From NCBI GenBank assembly GCA_024653355.1, contig JANLFQ010000005.1:1-47923 (forward strand): a stretch of DNA of 47,923 bases, given 5' to 3'. This stretch comes from a candidate division WOR-3 bacterium. Lineage in GTDB: Bacteria > Hydrothermota > Tepidihabitantia > Tepidihabitantales > Tepidihabitantaceae. The notes under the pieces were generated by a model. That model was not told the origin of the DNA. It searched no databases and was given only the letters and a program-made list of their open reading frames with translations. A program made the position numbers and the translations under genes. This document shows positions 16,178-47,923 of this stretch, in pieces (within the stretch, counting starts at the first letter, position 1; each line of letters opens with the position of its first letter).

Positions 16178-16205
16178 TTGTGAGCCTTCTGGGGTAATGT
16201 ATAAT
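16178..16205 (+). promoter_or_regulatory. Promoter of the PurM/HypE-like gene
   Basis: TTGTGA (16178-16183), 16-base spacer, perfect TATAAT (16200-16205). The ATG at 16212 lies 6 bases on, where transcription itself should start, so the message is probably leaderless. Confidence 0.6.
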
Positions 16206-16211
16206 TGTTTT

Positions 16212-17252
16212 ATGATGTTACCGCGCATTGGTAAGCTGGATACCGAGGCGTTTGAAAGGTTTATCTTCCCGTATCTCGGTGCCGAATCGTCGCGGGTTAT
16301 TCTTGGTCCCCGGCACGGCGTTGACGCTGCGGTGATTGCCCTGGACGATGCACCGGCAGGAAGCAGAAGGGTAATGGTTGTTGCCGAAGACCCGACCTTC
16401 GGCATGCCGGTTCTGCTTGATAATTTTGGCTGGGGGATTGTGCACATCTGCGCCAGTGATGTTGCCGTGATGGGAATTAAACCCCAGTTTCTTTCTATCT
16501 GTCTTCTGTTGCCACCAGACACCGAACCGGCACTGCTCGACCGTATCTGGCGCCAAGTGGATGAGGAGTGTAAAAGGCTGGGCATCGCCATCGTCGGTGG
16601 TCACACCGGTGTTTATCCCGGTATCGCCTATCCGTTGAATGGCGGCTGCACTGTGTGGGGTTTTGGTAATGAAGGCGAACTCACCCCGGCTTCAGCGGCA
16701 AGACCGGGTGATGCTCTGGTGGTGACCAAGGGACCGGCGATTGAGGCAACAGCAATCCTTGCGCTGCAAGCCGAAGAAGAGTTAAAGGCAAAACTCGGTA
16801 TCCAGATGGTTGAAGATGCCAAGGCGCTGTTCTACCAGATGACGGTGGTGCCGGATGCGCTGCTTTGCCGGAATTATGCCCGGGCGATGCACGATGCAAC
16901 CGAAGGCGGGCTACTGGGCGGTGTTTATGAAATGGCGGCGGCAAGCGGCATTGGCGTCACGGTTTATGAGGAAAAGATTGTTACCAATGACGCGGTAAAG
17001 GCGGTGTGCAATTATTTTGAAATTGACCCGCTGGTTGCAATCAGTGAAGGGACGCTCGTCTGTGCGGTGCCACCCGAAAGGGTTAATGAGTTAAAGGCGG
17101 CCGCAGGGCAAGCAGGACTGCCGCTGTATGAGATTGGTGAGTTTACCGCCGGCATCCGGCGTTTTATTCGGCGTAACGGCAAGGAGGAGCCGCTACTGCC
17201 GGTTAAGGAAGACCCGTTCTGGCAGGCGTATTTTAAAACGGTGATGAAATGA
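16212..17252 (+). CDS. PurM-like (AIR synthase/HypE-related) ATP-binding protein
   Basis: Belongs to the PurM superfamily (AIR synthase, HypE, ThiL, SelD), which binds ATP in a two-domain fold. Motifs include RVILGPRHGVDAAVIAL near the N-terminus, IVHICASDVAVMGIKPQF, AIVGGHTGVYPG, ARPGDALVVTKGPAIEATA and MHDATEGGLLGGVYEMA. It most resembles the HypE-like proteins common in Archaea. True HypE ends in a PRIC-type Cys tail needed for hydrogenase cyanide ligand synthesis; this one ends YFKTVMK, so it is not a HypE for hydrogenase maturation. ATG 16212 fits the promoter; ATG 16197 lies across the -10 box. It overlaps thiN by 4 bases, suggesting a link to thiamine synthesis, but the reaction is unknown. 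Confidence 0.8.
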   Translation: MMLPRIGKLDTEAFERFIFPYLGAESSRVILGPRHGVDAAVIALDDAPAGSRRVMVVAEDPTFGMPVLLDNFGWGIVHICASDVAVMGIKPQFLSICLLLPPDTEPALLDRIWRQVDEECKRLGIAIVGGHTGVYPGIAYPLNGGCTVWGFGNEGELTPASAARPGDALVVTKGPAIEATAILALQAEEELKAKLGIQMVEDAKALFYQMTVVPDALLCRNYARAMHDATEGGLLGGVYEMAAASGIGVTVYEEKIVTNDAVKAVCNYFEIDPLVAISEGTLVCAVPPERVNELKAAAGQAGLPLYEIGEFTAGIRRFIRRNGKEEPLLPVKEDPFWQAYFKTVMK

Positions 17253-40728: not shown

Positions 40729-41898
40729 TTGGACGAAATCAAACTCCGTTACGGCACCAACCCTCATCAGAAATCGGCGCGCATCTTCCTGCCCGAAGGC
40801 AAACTACCGCTCAAAATCGTCAACGGCGAACCCAGTTACATCAACATCATCGACGCCCTCAACTCCTGGCAACTCGTCCGGGAGTTAAAACAACTTACCA
40901 ACATCCCGGCGGCGGCAAGTTTCAAACACACAAGTCCGGCTGGTGCCGCAATCGGCAAACCGCTCTCCCCGGAACTCAAAAAGTCACTCTTCGTCTTCGA
41001 CATTGAACTTTCGCCCCTTGCTGCTGCCTATGCCCGCGCCCGTGGTGCCGACCGGATGGCAACCTTTGGCGACTGGGCAGCATTCTCCGACCCTGTTGAC
41101 ATCACCACTGCCCAGCTCTTAGCGGGCGAAGTGTCCGACGGTTGCATCGCACCCGATTACCAACCCGAAGCCCTTGCCATCCTCAAACAAAAGAAAAACG
41201 GCAAATACCCTGTGCTGCAGATTGACCCCGATTACAACCCGCCCCCCTTAGAAATCCGTCAACTGTTTGGCATCTACCTTGAACAGGAACGCAACAACGC
41301 CCCGATTGACGAAACCCTGCTCCAGAATGTCGTCACCCGGGAAAAAAACATTCCGGAACAAACCAGAATTGACCTTCTCCTTGCCCTCATCACCCTAAAA
41401 TACACCCAGTCCAACTCGGTCGTCTTAACCTACGATGGCCAGGTTGTCGGTGTCGGCGCCGGTCAACAGTCCCGCATCCATTGCACCCGACTCGCCTGCG
41501 CCAAAGCCGACAAATGGTTTTTACGCCTTCACCCCCGAATCCTCAACCTCAAATTCCTCAAAGGCACAACCCGCGCCGAAAAGGCAACCGCCATTGACAT
41601 TCTCCTTGAAGAAACCGCCACCCCGGAAGAACTCCAGCCCTTCCTTGCGCTCCTTGCCGAACCACCCCAACCATTCACCTGGGAAGAAAAACGCTCCTGG
41701 CTCGCAAACTTTTCCGGCATCTGCCTTGGCTCCGACGGCTTCATCCCCTTCCGCGACAACCTTGACCGTGCTGCCCGTTCCAATGTCCGCTATGTCATCC
41801 AGCCGGGCGGCTCAACGCGGGACCAAACCATCATCGACGCTGCCGACCAGTACCGGATGGTGATGGTATTCACCAACCTCCGCCTCTTCTACCATTAA
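40729..41898 (+). CDS. purH: AICAR transformylase (PurH C-terminal domain only)
   Basis: Transfers a formyl group from 10-formyl-THF to AICAR, the ninth step of purine synthesis. LRYGTNPHQKSARIFL and the catalytic Lys-His of AASFKHTSPAGAA identify the AICARFT domain, followed by YARARGADRMATFGDWAAFS, DGCIAPDYQPEAL, YTQSNSVVLTYDGQVVGVGA and SDGFIPFRDNLDRAA. At 389 residues it lacks the N-terminal IMP cyclohydrolase domain of normal PurH (about 510-530), so the final ring closure must come from another enzyme. The start is TTG 40729, 6 bases after the -10 box. Bounded on the right by a minus-strand terminator. Confidence 0.88.
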   Translation: MDEIKLRYGTNPHQKSARIFLPEGKLPLKIVNGEPSYINIIDALNSWQLVRELKQLTNIPAAASFKHTSPAGAAIGKPLSPELKKSLFVFDIELSPLAAAYARARGADRMATFGDWAAFSDPVDITTAQLLAGEVSDGCIAPDYQPEALAILKQKKNGKYPVLQIDPDYNPPPLEIRQLFGIYLEQERNNAPIDETLLQNVVTREKNIPEQTRIDLLLALITLKYTQSNSVVLTYDGQVVGVGAGQQSRIHCTRLACAKADKWFLRLHPRILNLKFLKGTTRAEKATAIDILLEETATPEELQPFLALLAEPPQPFTWEEKRSWLANFSGICLGSDGFIPFRDNLDRAARSNVRYVIQPGGSTRDQTIIDAADQYRMVMVFTNLRLFYH

Positions 41899-41925
41899 AA
41901 AAAGCGGGGCAGAAACCCGCCCCGC
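41897..41925 (-). terminator. Intrinsic terminator of the Omp28-like gene
   Basis: On the minus strand GCGGGGC (41925-41919), an 8-base loop and GCCCCGC (41910-41904) are followed by TTTTTTT (41903-41897). It lies 20 bases after the stop at 41945; its T run reaches the last codon of the opposite purH gene. Confidence 0.85.
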
Positions 41926-41944: not shown

Positions 41945-42961
41945 TTATTCGTAAACCACCAGTTTCCCGGTGTGGCTCTTACCCGCCACCACAACCCGAT
42001 ACAGATACACCCCACCGGCAAGGCTTTGCCTCAACTTCAGACTGGTCTCGCCTTCGGCAACACCGGCAAACCTTTCTACCAGCCTGCCGTCCGAAGACAA
42101 CACTGCAACCTCATAAGGTGCCCTGCCGGTAGTTGCAAACTGAAAACTTGCCCTGCCCCGGCAAGGATTAGGTGTCACTCGCAACGAGTGCAACGCCGCG
42201 CGCGCTGGCTTCTCCTCCTTCACACCAACCAGGTCCAGAACCCGCACCTCGGCACCCTGAAAAACGGGATAAGACGAATCTGCCGGCACCATCGTTGTGC
42301 TCTGGGCATAAACCACCACCTTACACCTCTCCTCATTCCAGTTACTGGCGATGGTAAACGGCTGCTCAACCGAATCCATCCCGCCTGCCGGAATCGTCAA
42401 CACCGTGCCCGACTGATTCGGGATATAGTCCCGACAAACATGATTGTGCCACGGGTCCCCATTCGGTCCTGCATAATAGCAGGAGTCCTCGGTAATCACC
42501 ACCGAAACCCGGGCGGTGATATCATCGGTAGAGTCGTTCTGAATCAGCGCCTTAATTGTGCCATTCCGGCTTGACTGGTCATAACTGCCAACCACTGTAA
42601 TCTGCACCGGTGTTGGCACCGTAATCTGCGCTGCAACATAACTTGCCCACAGATTATAGTTATACCCGCGCTGGCGTCCATCAACCCAGAGCCAAGGCGT
42701 CGCATAACTACCATTGTAGGGAGGTGGGTACATAAACCACTTCGCCCTGCCCTCTGCTGAATAAAGCGGATAGGACGAAGATACATGCCACTCCACCGCC
42801 ACTACATAACCGGCATAATCATTGCAAATTTGGTCCAGCCGACCGCTGGCAGGATTACAGGAGCCTCAACCCTCCTGATAGGCTTCTTCCAGCACCACCA
42901 CCCGCTGGTATCCGGCGGACACAGCGAGCAATAGCGCCGTTAAAACTAACACCTTCTTCAT
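41945..42961 (-). CDS. Omp28-like secreted protein with in-frame TGA (probable selenoprotein, UxxC)
   Basis: ATG 42961 follows GGAGG and starts a signal peptide (MKKVLVLTALLLAVSAGYQ). The frame then reads VVVLEEAYQEG, a TGA at 42868-42866, GSCNPASGRLDQICNDYAGY, and continues to the stop at 41945, 338 residues in all. Without the TGA being read, the open part would begin only at 42802 with no ribosome site and no signal. Omp28-family proteins have a thioredoxin-like EExTxxWCxxC motif at this place; the TGA falls on the first Cys, giving UGSC. A SECIS-like hairpin follows 16 bases later. The C-terminal 80 residues (VTPNPCRGRASFQFA to GGVYLYRVVVAGKSHTGKLV) are a type IX-like sorting tail. It is probably a secreted thiol-redox protein; a sequencing error or early stop remains possible. 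Confidence 0.78.
42835..42849 (-). promoter_or_regulatory. SECIS-like hairpin after the in-frame TGA
   Basis: On the minus strand CCAGC (42849-42845), loop GGTCG (42844-42840), GCTGG (42839-42835). It begins 16 bases after the TGA and the loop 21 bases after it, within the range of bacterial SECIS elements, whose loop usually contains GGU as in E. coli fdhF (AGGUCU). Confidence 0.6.
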
Positions 42962-42984
42962 AATACCTCCAGTTTGTTTATCCT

Positions 42985-43012
42985 ATTCTATCACCCAAAC
43001 CCAAACTGTCAA
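42985..43012 (-). promoter_or_regulatory. Promoter of the Omp28-like gene
   Basis: On the minus strand perfect TTGACA (43012-43007), 16-base spacer, TAGAAT (42990-42985). A leader of about 18 bases with GGAGG precedes ATG 42961. The -35 box is 27 bases from the last CRISPR repeat. Confidence 0.7.
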
Positions 43013-43258
43013 TAACCCTGCTCTTCTCTCTGCCCAACTTACCACATCCTTGTTTTAATGGAAGTAGCATAACAACATTAAACTCAACCAGTCAATTGCG
43101 TCCTCAATCGGTGTTTCAATCCTTGTTTTAATGGAAGTAGCATAACAACCCTATACCGCATTGACGCACGATTACCTGACAGGGTGTTTCAATCCTTGTT
43201 TTAATGGAAGTAGCATAACAACAACCACATCGGCAATCGTCTCCGGAGGAAATTCACC

Positions 43259-43443
43259 GTTTCAATCCTTGTTTTAATGGAAGTAGCATAACAACCGAAA
43301 CATACTCCCCAGACCCACACACAGGATAGGGAAGTTTCAATCCTTGTTTTAATGGAAGTAGCATAACAACAACGACGACGAAGAAAACGACGATGAAGAA
43401 AGGAGTGTTTCAATCCTTGTTTTAATGGAAGTAGCATAACAAC
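43259..43443. repeat. CRISPR segment duplicated at 43776-43960 (two spacers)
   Basis: Three repeats and two spacers (43296-43333 and 43371-43406) recur identically over 185 bases at 43776-43960. Confidence 0.95.
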
Positions 43444-43478
43444 CACAATAAGCCCGACGCTGAAATCAAAGTCTACTC

Positions 43479-43736
43479 GTTTCAATCCTTGTTTTAATGG
43501 AAGTAGCATAACAACAGTGTCAAGCAGAGCCAGTTCCGCCGTGTGCTTTACTGTTTCAATCCTTGTTTTAATGGAAGTAGCATAACAACTGCGTGACACG
43601 GCGTTTGGGCGTCCGTCGCAGGTTGGTTTCAATCCTTGTTTTAATGGAAGTAGCATAACAACCATTTTGTCCTCCTTTGTTTTGCCATCGTTATAAGACG
43701 TTTCAATCCTTGTTTTAATGGAAGTAGCATAACAAC
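43479..43736. repeat. CRISPR segment duplicated at 44438-44695 (three spacers)
   Basis: Four repeats and three spacers (43516-43552, 43590-43625, 43663-43699) recur in the same order and identically over 258 bases at 44438-44695. Confidence 0.95.
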
Positions 43737-46270
43737 AACGACCTTACCCATACCATCACCTCCTTGTCGTGTAATGTTTCAATCCTTGTTTTAATGGAAG
43801 TAGCATAACAACCGAAACATACTCCCCAGACCCACACACAGGATAGGGAAGTTTCAATCCTTGTTTTAATGGAAGTAGCATAACAACAACGACGACGAAG
43901 AAAACGACGATGAAGAAAGGAGTGTTTCAATCCTTGTTTTAATGGAAGTAGCATAACAACCCACCAACACACGCTCACCGTGCAGCATACCCTTGGTTTC
44001 AATCCTTGTTTTAATGGAAGTAGCATAACAACTTTTCACGGTATTGATAATCACTTTTGCGTTCCGCAGTTTCAATCCTTGTTTTAATGGAAGTAGCATA
44101 ACAACGCGACGATTGATGAACTGAACGACACGGCACAAAGAATGTTTCAATCCTTGTTTTAATGGAAGTAGCATAACAACCACTTTTCTGTTTCGGGTTC
44201 AGTGATGGAGCACCAAGTTTCAATCCTTGTTTTAATGGAAGTAGCATAACAACACCGAACGCTTATTCTGAACGATATTCACAACTCCCTGTTTCAATCC
44301 TTGTTTTAATGGAAGTAGCATAACAACAAGGCGATTTGAACCACGCCATCCGTCTTTGCCCCGCGTTTCAATCCTTGTTTTAATGGAAGTAGCATAACAA
44401 CCAGGTATCATCTTGTTATCCTGAATTTTCAGAAGGTGTTTCAATCCTTGTTTTAATGGAAGTAGCATAACAACAGTGTCAAGCAGAGCCAGTTCCGCCG
44501 TGTGCTTTACTGTTTCAATCCTTGTTTTAATGGAAGTAGCATAACAACTGCGTGACACGGCGTTTGGGCGTCCGTCGCAGGTTGGTTTCAATCCTTGTTT
44601 TAATGGAAGTAGCATAACAACCATTTTGTCCTCCTTTGTTTTGCCATCGTTATAAGACGTTTCAATCCTTGTTTTAATGGAAGTAGCATAACAACATTCG
44701 AGCGGTGTTTCGTGCTGTTTGTGTGTTCACGTTTCAATCCTTGTTTTAATGGAAGTAGCATAACAACAATGCGGGCAGTGCTAAAATTCTAATTTACAAC
44801 TGGGAAGTTTCAATCCTTGTTTTAATGGAAGTAGCATAACAACAAGCGTTAGGGCAAAAAATACTTGAAAAGTTATTATGTTTCAATCCTTGTTTTAATG
44901 GAAGTAGCATAACAACTTGCCTTTGATGGCGTGGAGCAAATTGTGCGGGGCAAGTTTCAATCCTTGTTTTAATGGAAGTAGCATAACAACAATTTTTAGG
45001 ACGCCTGAACATACCGCTATTTGAACGTTTCAATCCTTGTTTTAATGGAAGTAGCATAACAACAAGGGAACTGCTTGCCGATTCAGGTTACAATGTTGTG
45101 TTTCAATCCTTGTTTTAATGGAAGTAGCATAACAACTTTTCGGCTTAATTTAATTTCACTACCTAACTTTTTACCGTTTCAATCCTTGTTTTAATGGAAG
45201 TAGCATAACAACCAAGTTTGTCAAGGTATGTCTTTTTGGCTACTTGAGTTTCAATCCTTGTTTTAATGGAAGTAGCATAACAACTTCGGTTTCCAGTTTC
45301 GCATCCTTGGGAACATAGACAGTTTCAATCCTTGTTTTAATGGAAGTAGCATAACAACGGACAACGAAACGCAGATTGTTTTCAGCATCACGGAAGTTTC
45401 AATCCTTGTTTTAATGGAAGTAGCATAACAACCGTTCTGGTCATCGGCATTTTTCATATCCTGAATTAGTTTCAATCCTTGTTTTAATGGAAGTAGCATA
45501 ACAACGCAGACCACCTGAAACACCCTTCTACCCTGCGGATAGTTTCAATCCTTGTTTTAATGGAAGTAGCATAACAACGCGGTAGCGGAAGTGAACTACG
45601 ACTTGACATACGGTTTCAATCCTTGTTTTAATGGAAGTAGCATAACAACCTCTAAATTTAATTTTATCTTTACCGTCTTGTCGGGTTTCAATCCTTGTTT
45701 TAATGGAAGTAGCATAACAACTACGCCGGGAGTGCCGAACAGGATTCAATACTACCGTTTCAATCCTTGTTTTAATGGAAGTAGCATAACAACCAAAACA
45801 GGCAAAACCCGTCAGGATTGGTGCGTTTAGTTTCAATCCTTGTTTTAATGGAAGTAGCATAACAACGCTGGTGGTTGATATGCGGAACGCCGGCGGGTCT
45901 GTGTTTCAATCCTTGTTTTAATGGAAGTAGCATAACAACTCAGCGAACCAGTCGGCAGTGAGTAGTTCCCCTCGTGTTTCAATCCTTGTTTTAATGGAAG
46001 TAGCATAACAACCGAGAAAAAAAATATATGGTAAACATTCTGTATTTCAGTTTCAATCCTTGTTTTAATGGAAGTAGCATAACAACCGGGGACACCGCAC
46101 ATTAAGACTTGACGGCGAAATTTGTTTCAATCCTTGTTTTAATGGAAGTAGCATAACAACTGTTGTAATTTCCGTCATTGCTGTGTCTCCTGCAGCAGTT
46201 TCAATCCTTGTTTTAATGGAAGTAGCATAACAACATCCCTACCGCTTTTTCGGTGGCTGCTGTTGTTCAT

Positions 46271-46380
46271 GTTTCAATCCTTGTTTTAATGGAAGTAGCA
46301 TAACAACGATGTCAAGATCAAGCAACCGTATGAGTATGCACAGGTTTCAATCCTTGTTTTAATGGAAGTAGCATAACAAC
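46271..46380. repeat. CRISPR segment duplicated at 46418-46527 (one spacer)
   Basis: The spacer at 46308-46343 is identical to that at 46455-46490, with one other spacer between them. Confidence 0.95.
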
Positions 46381-47923
46381 CTGGCATATTTCCGCTCCAA
46401 AGACTCCAAGGTGCGGTGTTTCAATCCTTGTTTTAATGGAAGTAGCATAACAACGATGTCAAGATCAAGCAACCGTATGAGTATGCACAGGTTTCAATCC
46501 TTGTTTTAATGGAAGTAGCATAACAACTGGAGAGATTTTTTTCTGCCTTTTCCATCTTCTGGGTGGTTTCAATCCTTGTTTTAATGGAAGTAGCATAACA
46601 ACGCCGAATCCCGCAAAAACTTGACAGCAACTGCACCGTTTCAATCCTTGTTTTAATGGAAGTAGCATAACAACGAATCAGGAAACAGACTACGATATGA
46701 ACTTCCCTCTGTTTCAATCCTTGTTTTAATGGAAGTAGCATAACAACGGTTTACGCACGCACTAATGCCGATACAATTTAAGTAGTTTCAATCCTTGTTT
46801 TAATGGAAGTAGCATAACAACATATAACTTGTCGTTTGGTAAAAACTTGCCTCATCAAGTTTCAATCCTTGTTTTAATGGAAGTAGCATAACAACTCAGC
46901 GGATGCTTGCTTCTCTGGAGGGGCAATTAGTTTCAATCCTTGTTTTAATGGAAGTAGCATAACAACACCTCGGCGAACCAAGAAAAATATATCACCCGCC
47001 GTGTTTCAATCCTTGTTTTAATGGAAGTAGCATAACAACGGCTTAATTTTGGCAAGTGGTTTGCTTGTGGTGGGTTTCAATCCTTGTTTTAATGGAAGTA
47101 GCATAACAACTACACACGACGAAACCCAATTATCAACCATTTGAGAGTTTCAATCCTTGTTTTAATGGAAGTAGCATAACAACGCAGTTTTTTCAATATC
47201 CAACCTGATGGCAGTTGCGTTTCAATCCTTGTTTTAATGGAAGTAGCATAACAACCCCGGTAGGATTTCAGGAGAGCATAGATGGAAATAGTTTCAATCC
47301 TTGTTTTAATGGAAGTAGCATAACAACGATTGTGTAGTAATTTCCTTCATTGCTGCGTCTCTTGGTTTCAATCCTTGTTTTAATGGAAGTAGCATAACAA
47401 CTCTGATAGGAGAGTCTGGCAAGCCGTCCTGTTTAGTTTCAATCCTTGTTTTAATGGAAGTAGCATAACAACACTTCAAGCATTGTTGCCCGATATTGTT
47501 GATATGCGTGTTTCAATCCTTGTTTTAATGGAAGTAGCATAACAACATCGTCAAGGCGATTGATAATATCGTCAAGGCGTTGTTTCAATCCTTGTTTTAA
47601 TGGAAGTAGCATAACAACATTTTAATATCGCTATCGCCGTTATAAAAACTTATGTTTCAATCCTTGTTTTAATGGAAGTAGCATAACAACCAACCTCAAT
47701 GTTGCTGCTCTTCGAGAGGGTGAAGAGTTTCAATCCTTGTTTTAATGGAAGTAGCATAACAACCATTGACAGGATAAATTTTTGGCGTTGATATCAGTGT
47801 TTCAATCCTTGTTTTAATGGAAGTAGCATAACAACCTATCTCCAAATCGCTTCACAGACTTATCCCATTGTTTCAATCCTTGTTTTAATGGAAGTAGCAT
47901 AACAACAGTTCTGGGACTGCTGG

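Follow-up and report, generated by a model that had tools for sequence, protein, structure and literature searches.

A predicted Omp28-like selenoprotein with a type IX secretion tail in candidate division WOR-3 bacteria

A 47,923-nucleotide stretch from the genome of a candidate division WOR-3 bacterium (here called the window) carries a reading frame with a well-formed start that meets an in-frame TGA at its 32nd codon and then continues for some 300 more. The question raised by this locus is whether the codon is a stop, an error or, as had been proposed in an earlier reading of the sequence alone (here, the original prediction), a codon for selenocysteine (Sec) in an exported redox protein. 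Several independent lines of comparison suggest that the gene very probably encodes a selenoprotein in which the UGA at positions 42868-42866 is read as Sec, a reading that, short of an experiment, has close to the strongest support that genome comparison can give.

A single TGA in an otherwise regular gene

The gene occupies positions 41945 to 42961 of the minus strand and, on the basis of its frame, profile matches and homologues, is predicted to encode an Omp28-like protein of 338 residues, including Sec32, with a type IX secretion system (T9SS) tail. Translation proceeds from an ATG at 42961 to a TAA at 41947-41945, and with the lone TGA (42866 to 42868, minus strand) read through, the N-terminal part of the product is MKKVLVLTALLLAVSAGYQRVVVLEEAYQEGUGSC. 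The TGA falls on the first cysteine position of a thioredoxin-like CxxC motif, yielding U-G-S-C, whose last residue, Cys35, is encoded by a TGT (42857 to 42859, minus strand). A Shine-Dalgarno sequence, GGAGG, lies upstream of the ATG (42966 to 42970, minus strand), and a candidate sigma-70-like promoter, TTGACA-16-TAGAAT (42985 to 43012, minus strand), which is a consensus match at 11 of 12 positions, lies 24 bases upstream of the ATG. An intrinsic terminator (41904 to 41925, minus strand) follows the full-length frame rather than the TGA. The single frame, with its ribosome-binding site, start, lone TGA and stop at 41945, is thus as the original prediction described it, and the claim that protein of one family lies on both sides of the TGA is borne out by the longer Omp28 models, of which NF033782 covers residues 15-220, although at 51 bits it falls short of the cut-off of 150.

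Such a frame would also stay open if UGA were generally reassigned in this lineage, for instance to Trp, Gly or Cys, a possibility for which we found no points in favor. TGA truly ends radA, nikR and the gene for the TonB receptor, and it is the stop of 13 of the 33 likely genes in the window; as originally argued, UGA is therefore not generally reassigned. Several members of the family under study themselves terminate with TGA, the in-frame TGA aligns with Cys only, and the genome has a tRNA-Sec with a TCA anticodon (see below). The TGA stops refute a general change of code, which we regard as vanishingly improbable.

Conservation of the TGA codon among homologues

A search of 147 genomes of the WOR-3 phylum, with the TGA read through, recovered homologues of the window protein in 112, and among the best matches over 70, with identities from 89% down to 33%, carried one in-frame TGA. 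After the collected loci were read in all frames and aligned on the motif, 118 distinct genes remained, which have TGA (81 genes), TGC (19) or TGT (18) at the Sec32 column; no other codon was found there among these 118 WOR-3-phylum homologues. The comparison that the original prediction had called for, namely, whether homologues carry TGA or a Cys codon at this column, hence places the in-frame UGA opposite the Cys of homologues, with 81 TGA against 37 TGC or TGT codons. The Sec homologues always have U-x-x-C, mostly UGSC, and the Cys homologues have T-W-C-T-Y-C and similar motifs. The column of Cys35, the partner of Sec32, is invariant in the aligned homologues.

In a tree built by a quick method with the Sec/Cys column masked, and containing one very long branch, the window gene belongs to a clade of 73 genes, all 73 with Sec (SH-aLRT 99), and at least four to five changes between Sec and Cys are required across the wider family. 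The family accordingly presents one clade in which no Cys was found, with several Sec/Cys exchanges around it. Comparison with the sister species gives a dN of 0.086 and a dS of 0.66 before the TGA (dN/dS of about 0.13) and a dN of 0.058 and a dS of 0.40 after it (dN/dS of about 0.15), so that the gene is under purifying selection on either side of the codon.

These data bear on the suspicion that the TGA is a sequencing error for TGC, TGT or TGG or marks a pseudogene born of a fresh nonsense mutation. The records are indeed metagenome assemblies, and TGC becomes TGA by a single substitution in the sequence, but 81 distinct genes, drawn from many assemblies, share the identical TGA, purifying selection persists downstream of it, and the terminator sits after the full frame. 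That so many distinct homologues (81) retain the TGA at one and the same position is far beyond chance; the conservation of the TGA refutes an error or a decayed gene, an explanation that we consider highly improbable.

Viral contigs yielded no relatives of the window protein, and a scan of genome contigs queried with the single window protein returned no loci. The same scan queried with the family alignment returned 32, nearly all named WOR-3 or Stahlbacteria. The named records of the clade are from candidate division WOR-3 or "Candidatus Stahlbacteria," apart from three labeled uncultured bacterium, Desulfuromonas sp. SDB and Latescibacterota.

Selenocysteine machinery

The genome that contains the window (1.88 Mb in 6 contigs, 98% complete) encodes SelA (483 bits), SelB (387 bits; cut-off, 242), SelD twice (357 and 337 bits; cut-off, 125) and a tRNA-Sec (74 bits) with anticodon TCA. 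The sel genes that the original prediction asked for are therefore present together in one genome, and the second selD gene, which adjoins selB, carries a TGA of its own. An open reading frame in the window at 16197-17252 was considered as SelD and rejected (78 bits against the cut-off of 125); it is an AIR-synthase-type gene, probably a relative of the HypE/ThiL type. On contig C3 of the same genome (L125:5879-15300), a second selD lies in a run with a 599-residue Cys-containing Omp28 paralogue and a 254-residue Cys-containing Omp28-like lipoprotein. Genes that we named by reading their sequences as coding for a class I methyltransferase, a corrinoid protein and MtaA-like, RamA-like and HgdB-like proteins belong to the same run, and it is unusual to find a selD next to a corrinoid methyltransfer cluster.

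SelB exceeds its cut-off in 61 of the 147 WOR-3-phylum genomes, namely, 41 of the 45 that have the TGA clade versus 20 of the other 102 (Fisher P = 9e-17, uncorrected for kinship). It was undetected in four genomes with TGA homologues (G071, G083, G112 and G118); each of these assemblies is either fragmented or incomplete, and a tRNA-Sec is present in one.

A covarying hairpin downstream of the TGA

Immediately after the TGA, we identified a bacterial SECIS-like hairpin (42834 to 42850, minus strand) with the stem CCAGC/GCTGG and the apical loop GGTCG, which is recognized by comparison and is the centroid structure in folding. Its six pairs, from +18/+34 to +23/+29 with the T of the TGA as 0, were counted in the 80 TGA genes that lack unknown bases, and 413 of the resulting 480 cells hold standard pairs. 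Protein sequence does not explain this pairing, because shuffles among synonymous codons of the same gene (n = 500) give only 240 +/- 10 paired cells, with a maximum of 269. The Cys homologues pair in 110 of 222 cells at the same positions. Sliding the 3' side by 1 to 3 bases leaves 80 to 216 paired cells versus 413 at the true register, where two-sided, compensatory changes number 48 versus 7 to 28 when slid. G occupies loop position +25 in 75 of the 80 genes, and the loop starts 21 bases past the UGA, a distance inside the known range of bacterial SECIS elements. Since the window hairpin folded alone is no more stable than its dinucleotide shuffles (z = +0.7), the support for a SECIS is comparative. 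A conserved, covarying hairpin with a G in its apical loop thus follows the UGA at short distance, as is expected of a bacterial SECIS, and the search suggested by the original prediction was successful in this regard. Together with the sel genes and the TGA/Cys column, it favors the Sec insertion proposed there.

The hairpin also weighs on a third alternative, under which translation stops at the UGA and reinitiates at a GTG at 42802, so that the product is a 285-residue protein without UxxC and the Sec site is at most a switch. The 285-residue frame exists, and Sec insertion is usually inefficient. Nevertheless, the stop would fall inside the thioredoxin fold, just past its first strand, the hairpin is conserved, dN/dS is low in the short upstream part as well, and the Cys relatives comprise the whole protein in one chain. 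We therefore judge truncation with reinitiation to be quite improbable and favor a full-length selenoprotein. Annotation would mostly truncate such genes at the UGA or discard them.

Domain architecture and predicted export

The predicted selenoprotein starts with a putative signal peptide (MKKVLVLTALLLAVSAGYQ; about residues 1-19, 42905 to 42961, minus strand), part of a hydrophobic N terminus that is conserved in homologues. Downstream of the TGA, a profile search matched Pfam Omp28 (PF11551) at residues 87-219 (42305 to 42703, minus strand) with 50.5 bits against a gathering cut-off of 34.9. The C terminus matched the T9SS type A sorting tail (TIGR04183) at residues 262-336 (41954 to 42178, minus strand) with 26.3 bits (cut-off, 23). 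The genome also encodes the T9SS translocon protein SprA (455 bits; cut-off, 200) and has 78 matches to the sorting tail. Because the tail, SprA and these further matches are all present, the protein likely reaches the cell surface through the T9SS, in agreement with the exported surface protein originally envisaged.

An AlphaFold model of the protein (pLDDT 93) has as its best PDB match the T9SS-exported thioredoxin-like HBP35 of Porphyromonas gingivalis (5y1a), with which the sequence profile agrees; the overall rmsd of 16.9 Å is high and fits shifts between domains, not a tight match. The next thioredoxin-like match is 2axo from Agrobacterium.

Gene neighborhood and a probable second Omp28-like selenoprotein

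Several genera of the family have the Sec-Omp28 gene at the end of a codirected run, which codes for DUF6029, a NapH-like membrane protein with 4Fe-4S clusters, lipoyl synthase (LipA), an MFS transporter and Sec-Omp28 (one genome lacks the MFS gene); the Sec-Omp28 gene often faces purH. Two genomes from another family of the class likewise have DUF6029 and NapH-like genes in the vicinity of the Sec gene. In the window, the convergent neighbor is likewise an AICAR transformylase (PurH-like) gene (40729 to 41898, plus strand), which is also found beside or near the Sec gene in relatives; it is of the PRK07106 type, with the AICAR transformylase part alone, unlike the bifunctional form in which two parts are fused.

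In the window genome, the DUF6029-NapH-like-LipA-MFS run lies on another contig, C2, and not beside the window Sec gene. It is preceded there by a TlpA/AhpC-TSA gene and, as the first gene of the run, an Omp28-like lipoprotein gene with an in-frame TGA in the motif DEUAYC (C2:335943-336725, equal to L182:1944-2726). A strong hairpin follows this TGA. In many WOR-3 genomes, relatives of the lipoprotein also carry a TGA, and a strong hairpin follows the codon in those that were read. We take it to be a likely second selenoprotein of the same superfamily; its gene and the window-type gene are at most 10 kb apart in 16 of the 17 genomes that have both on one contig.

The separation of the two loci has a plausible cause. 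A Cas_TM1802 gene follows the run on C2, and in the window a CRISPR array at the end of the contig lies directly next to the Sec gene. Insertion of a CRISPR-Cas locus between the MFS and Sec genes, in the genus of the window, would explain this most simply. The array (43040-47923), in which a repeat of 37 bases occurs about 67 times, reaches the window end and includes large, exactly duplicated blocks of spacers (e.g., 43259-43444 equals 43776-43961, and 43479-43737 equals 44438-44696). The sister species, too, has a CRISPR array next to its Sec gene at this position (L133:8180-9667); its repeat is a different one, and it likewise lies at a contig end.

Separately, Omp28-like proteins with a length of about 600 residues were observed at L062:412-2214 and in genomes G074, G076, G077, G078, G082, G086-G090 and G114-G118. 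Some of them have TGA and others Cys; the TGA column was checked in L062 only, where the motif is TATTUPYC. In several genomes, these genes lie 5-14 kb from selB, which may reflect a conserved neighborhood.

A possible selenium-dependent redox module of the envelope

On the basis of these observations, we favor a mechanism in which SelB and tRNA-Sec, guided by the hairpin just downstream, decode the UGA as Sec, the signal peptide exports the product, and the C-terminal tail directs it through the T9SS to the cell surface. There, the thioredoxin-fold domain with its Sec32/Cys35 pair would act as a thiol/selenol-disulfide oxidoreductase or a peroxide-reducing redox protein, with Sec32 attacking an extracellular substrate (a disulfide, a persulfide or a peroxide) and Cys35 resolving the adduct. 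Its probable partners would be the products of the ancestral operon, i.e., the Omp28-like Sec lipoprotein, the TlpA/AhpC-TSA protein, DUF6029 and the NapH-like 4Fe-4S membrane protein, the last of which could feed electrons via TlpA and the Sec lipoprotein to the window protein. A redox role of the protein together with these partners seems to us somewhat better than an even proposition, and the ancestral linkage likely denotes a surface thiol/selenol redox module.

An alternative is that the main task of the selenoprotein is not disulfide exchange at the surface but, for example, binding of metal or heme. HBP35, itself a T9SS client, binds heme (PMC2907840, PMC3120885), and genes for NikR, a TonB receptor and ZnuA lie within a few kilobases in the window. 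In other genera, however, the gene is paired with DUF6029, NapH-like, LipA and MFS genes rather than with the metal cluster, which among the loci examined adjoins it in the same genus only. We therefore regard a metal- or heme-binding task as unlikely, though less so than the alternatives to Sec decoding.

Returning to the redox reading, its fullest form would be a selenium-dependent envelope module of WOR-3 that comprises two Omp28-like selenoproteins, a lipoprotein (U-A-Y-C in this genome, C2:335943-336722) and a T9SS-exported surface protein (U-G-S-C in the window), driven by the NapH-like and TlpA/AhpC-TSA proteins with DUF6029. We offer this tentatively, as a scheme with slightly less than an even chance of being correct in full. 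If true, it would amount to a selenium-based electron or disulfide relay that extends to the cell surface. More broadly, the family indicates that Sec use in exported proteins with T9SS tags extends over much of this uncultured phylum, with many genomes having several copies, which would tie selenium use to the cell surface and offer a concrete operon for study.

Relationship to known families

UxxC thioredoxin-like selenoproteins are an already known kind. The nearest described group is NF045500, "Omp28-related selenoprotein," which, according to a 2026 review (PMC13188914), is the "hypothetical protein GOS_C" of Zhang and Gladyshev 2008, reported from the Global Ocean Sampling data with 74 Sec and 312 Cys sequences and a thioredoxin-like fold (PMC2398784). 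The window protein shares with it the Omp28/thioredoxin-like fold, the UxxC motif, a predicted bacterial SECIS and the coexistence of Sec and Cys homologues. Because it scores just 39.6 bits against the NF045500 cut-off of 200, and no gene in the 147 WOR-3-phylum genomes reaches that cut-off, we consider it a relative and not a member; its motif context, EEAYQEGUGSC, is unlike that of NF045500, and its named records are almost all from WOR-3. The view that this was not a described selenoprotein family hence needs amendment, in that an Omp28-related selenoprotein family exists, but holds insofar as the window protein represents a distant subfamily below its cut-off. A search of the open literature for selenoproteins with Omp28, WOR-3 or Stahlbacteria returned no relevant paper, and the sole co-match with "type IX secretion" was unrelated. 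The "UGSC-containing protein" family NF041046, considered for the motif, was rejected, as it gave no match at E values up to 1 and shares just the letters U-G-S-C.

Among families with Cys, the window protein shares the Pfam Omp28 match with the Omp28 outer membrane lipoproteins (NF033782/PF11551), but it stays below the NF033782 cut-off and is distinguished by Sec in place of Cys, the lack of a lipobox and the presence of the T9SS tail. HBP35, the best fold match, resembles it in combining a thioredoxin-like motif with a T9SS C-terminal domain; however, it is only 14% identical, has Cys rather than Sec, has a reported heme-binding role and comes from a different phylum. Against this background, the lineage-wide, all-Sec, T9SS-tailed WOR-3 subfamily and its linked second selenoprotein appear to be undescribed, and they extend NF045500.
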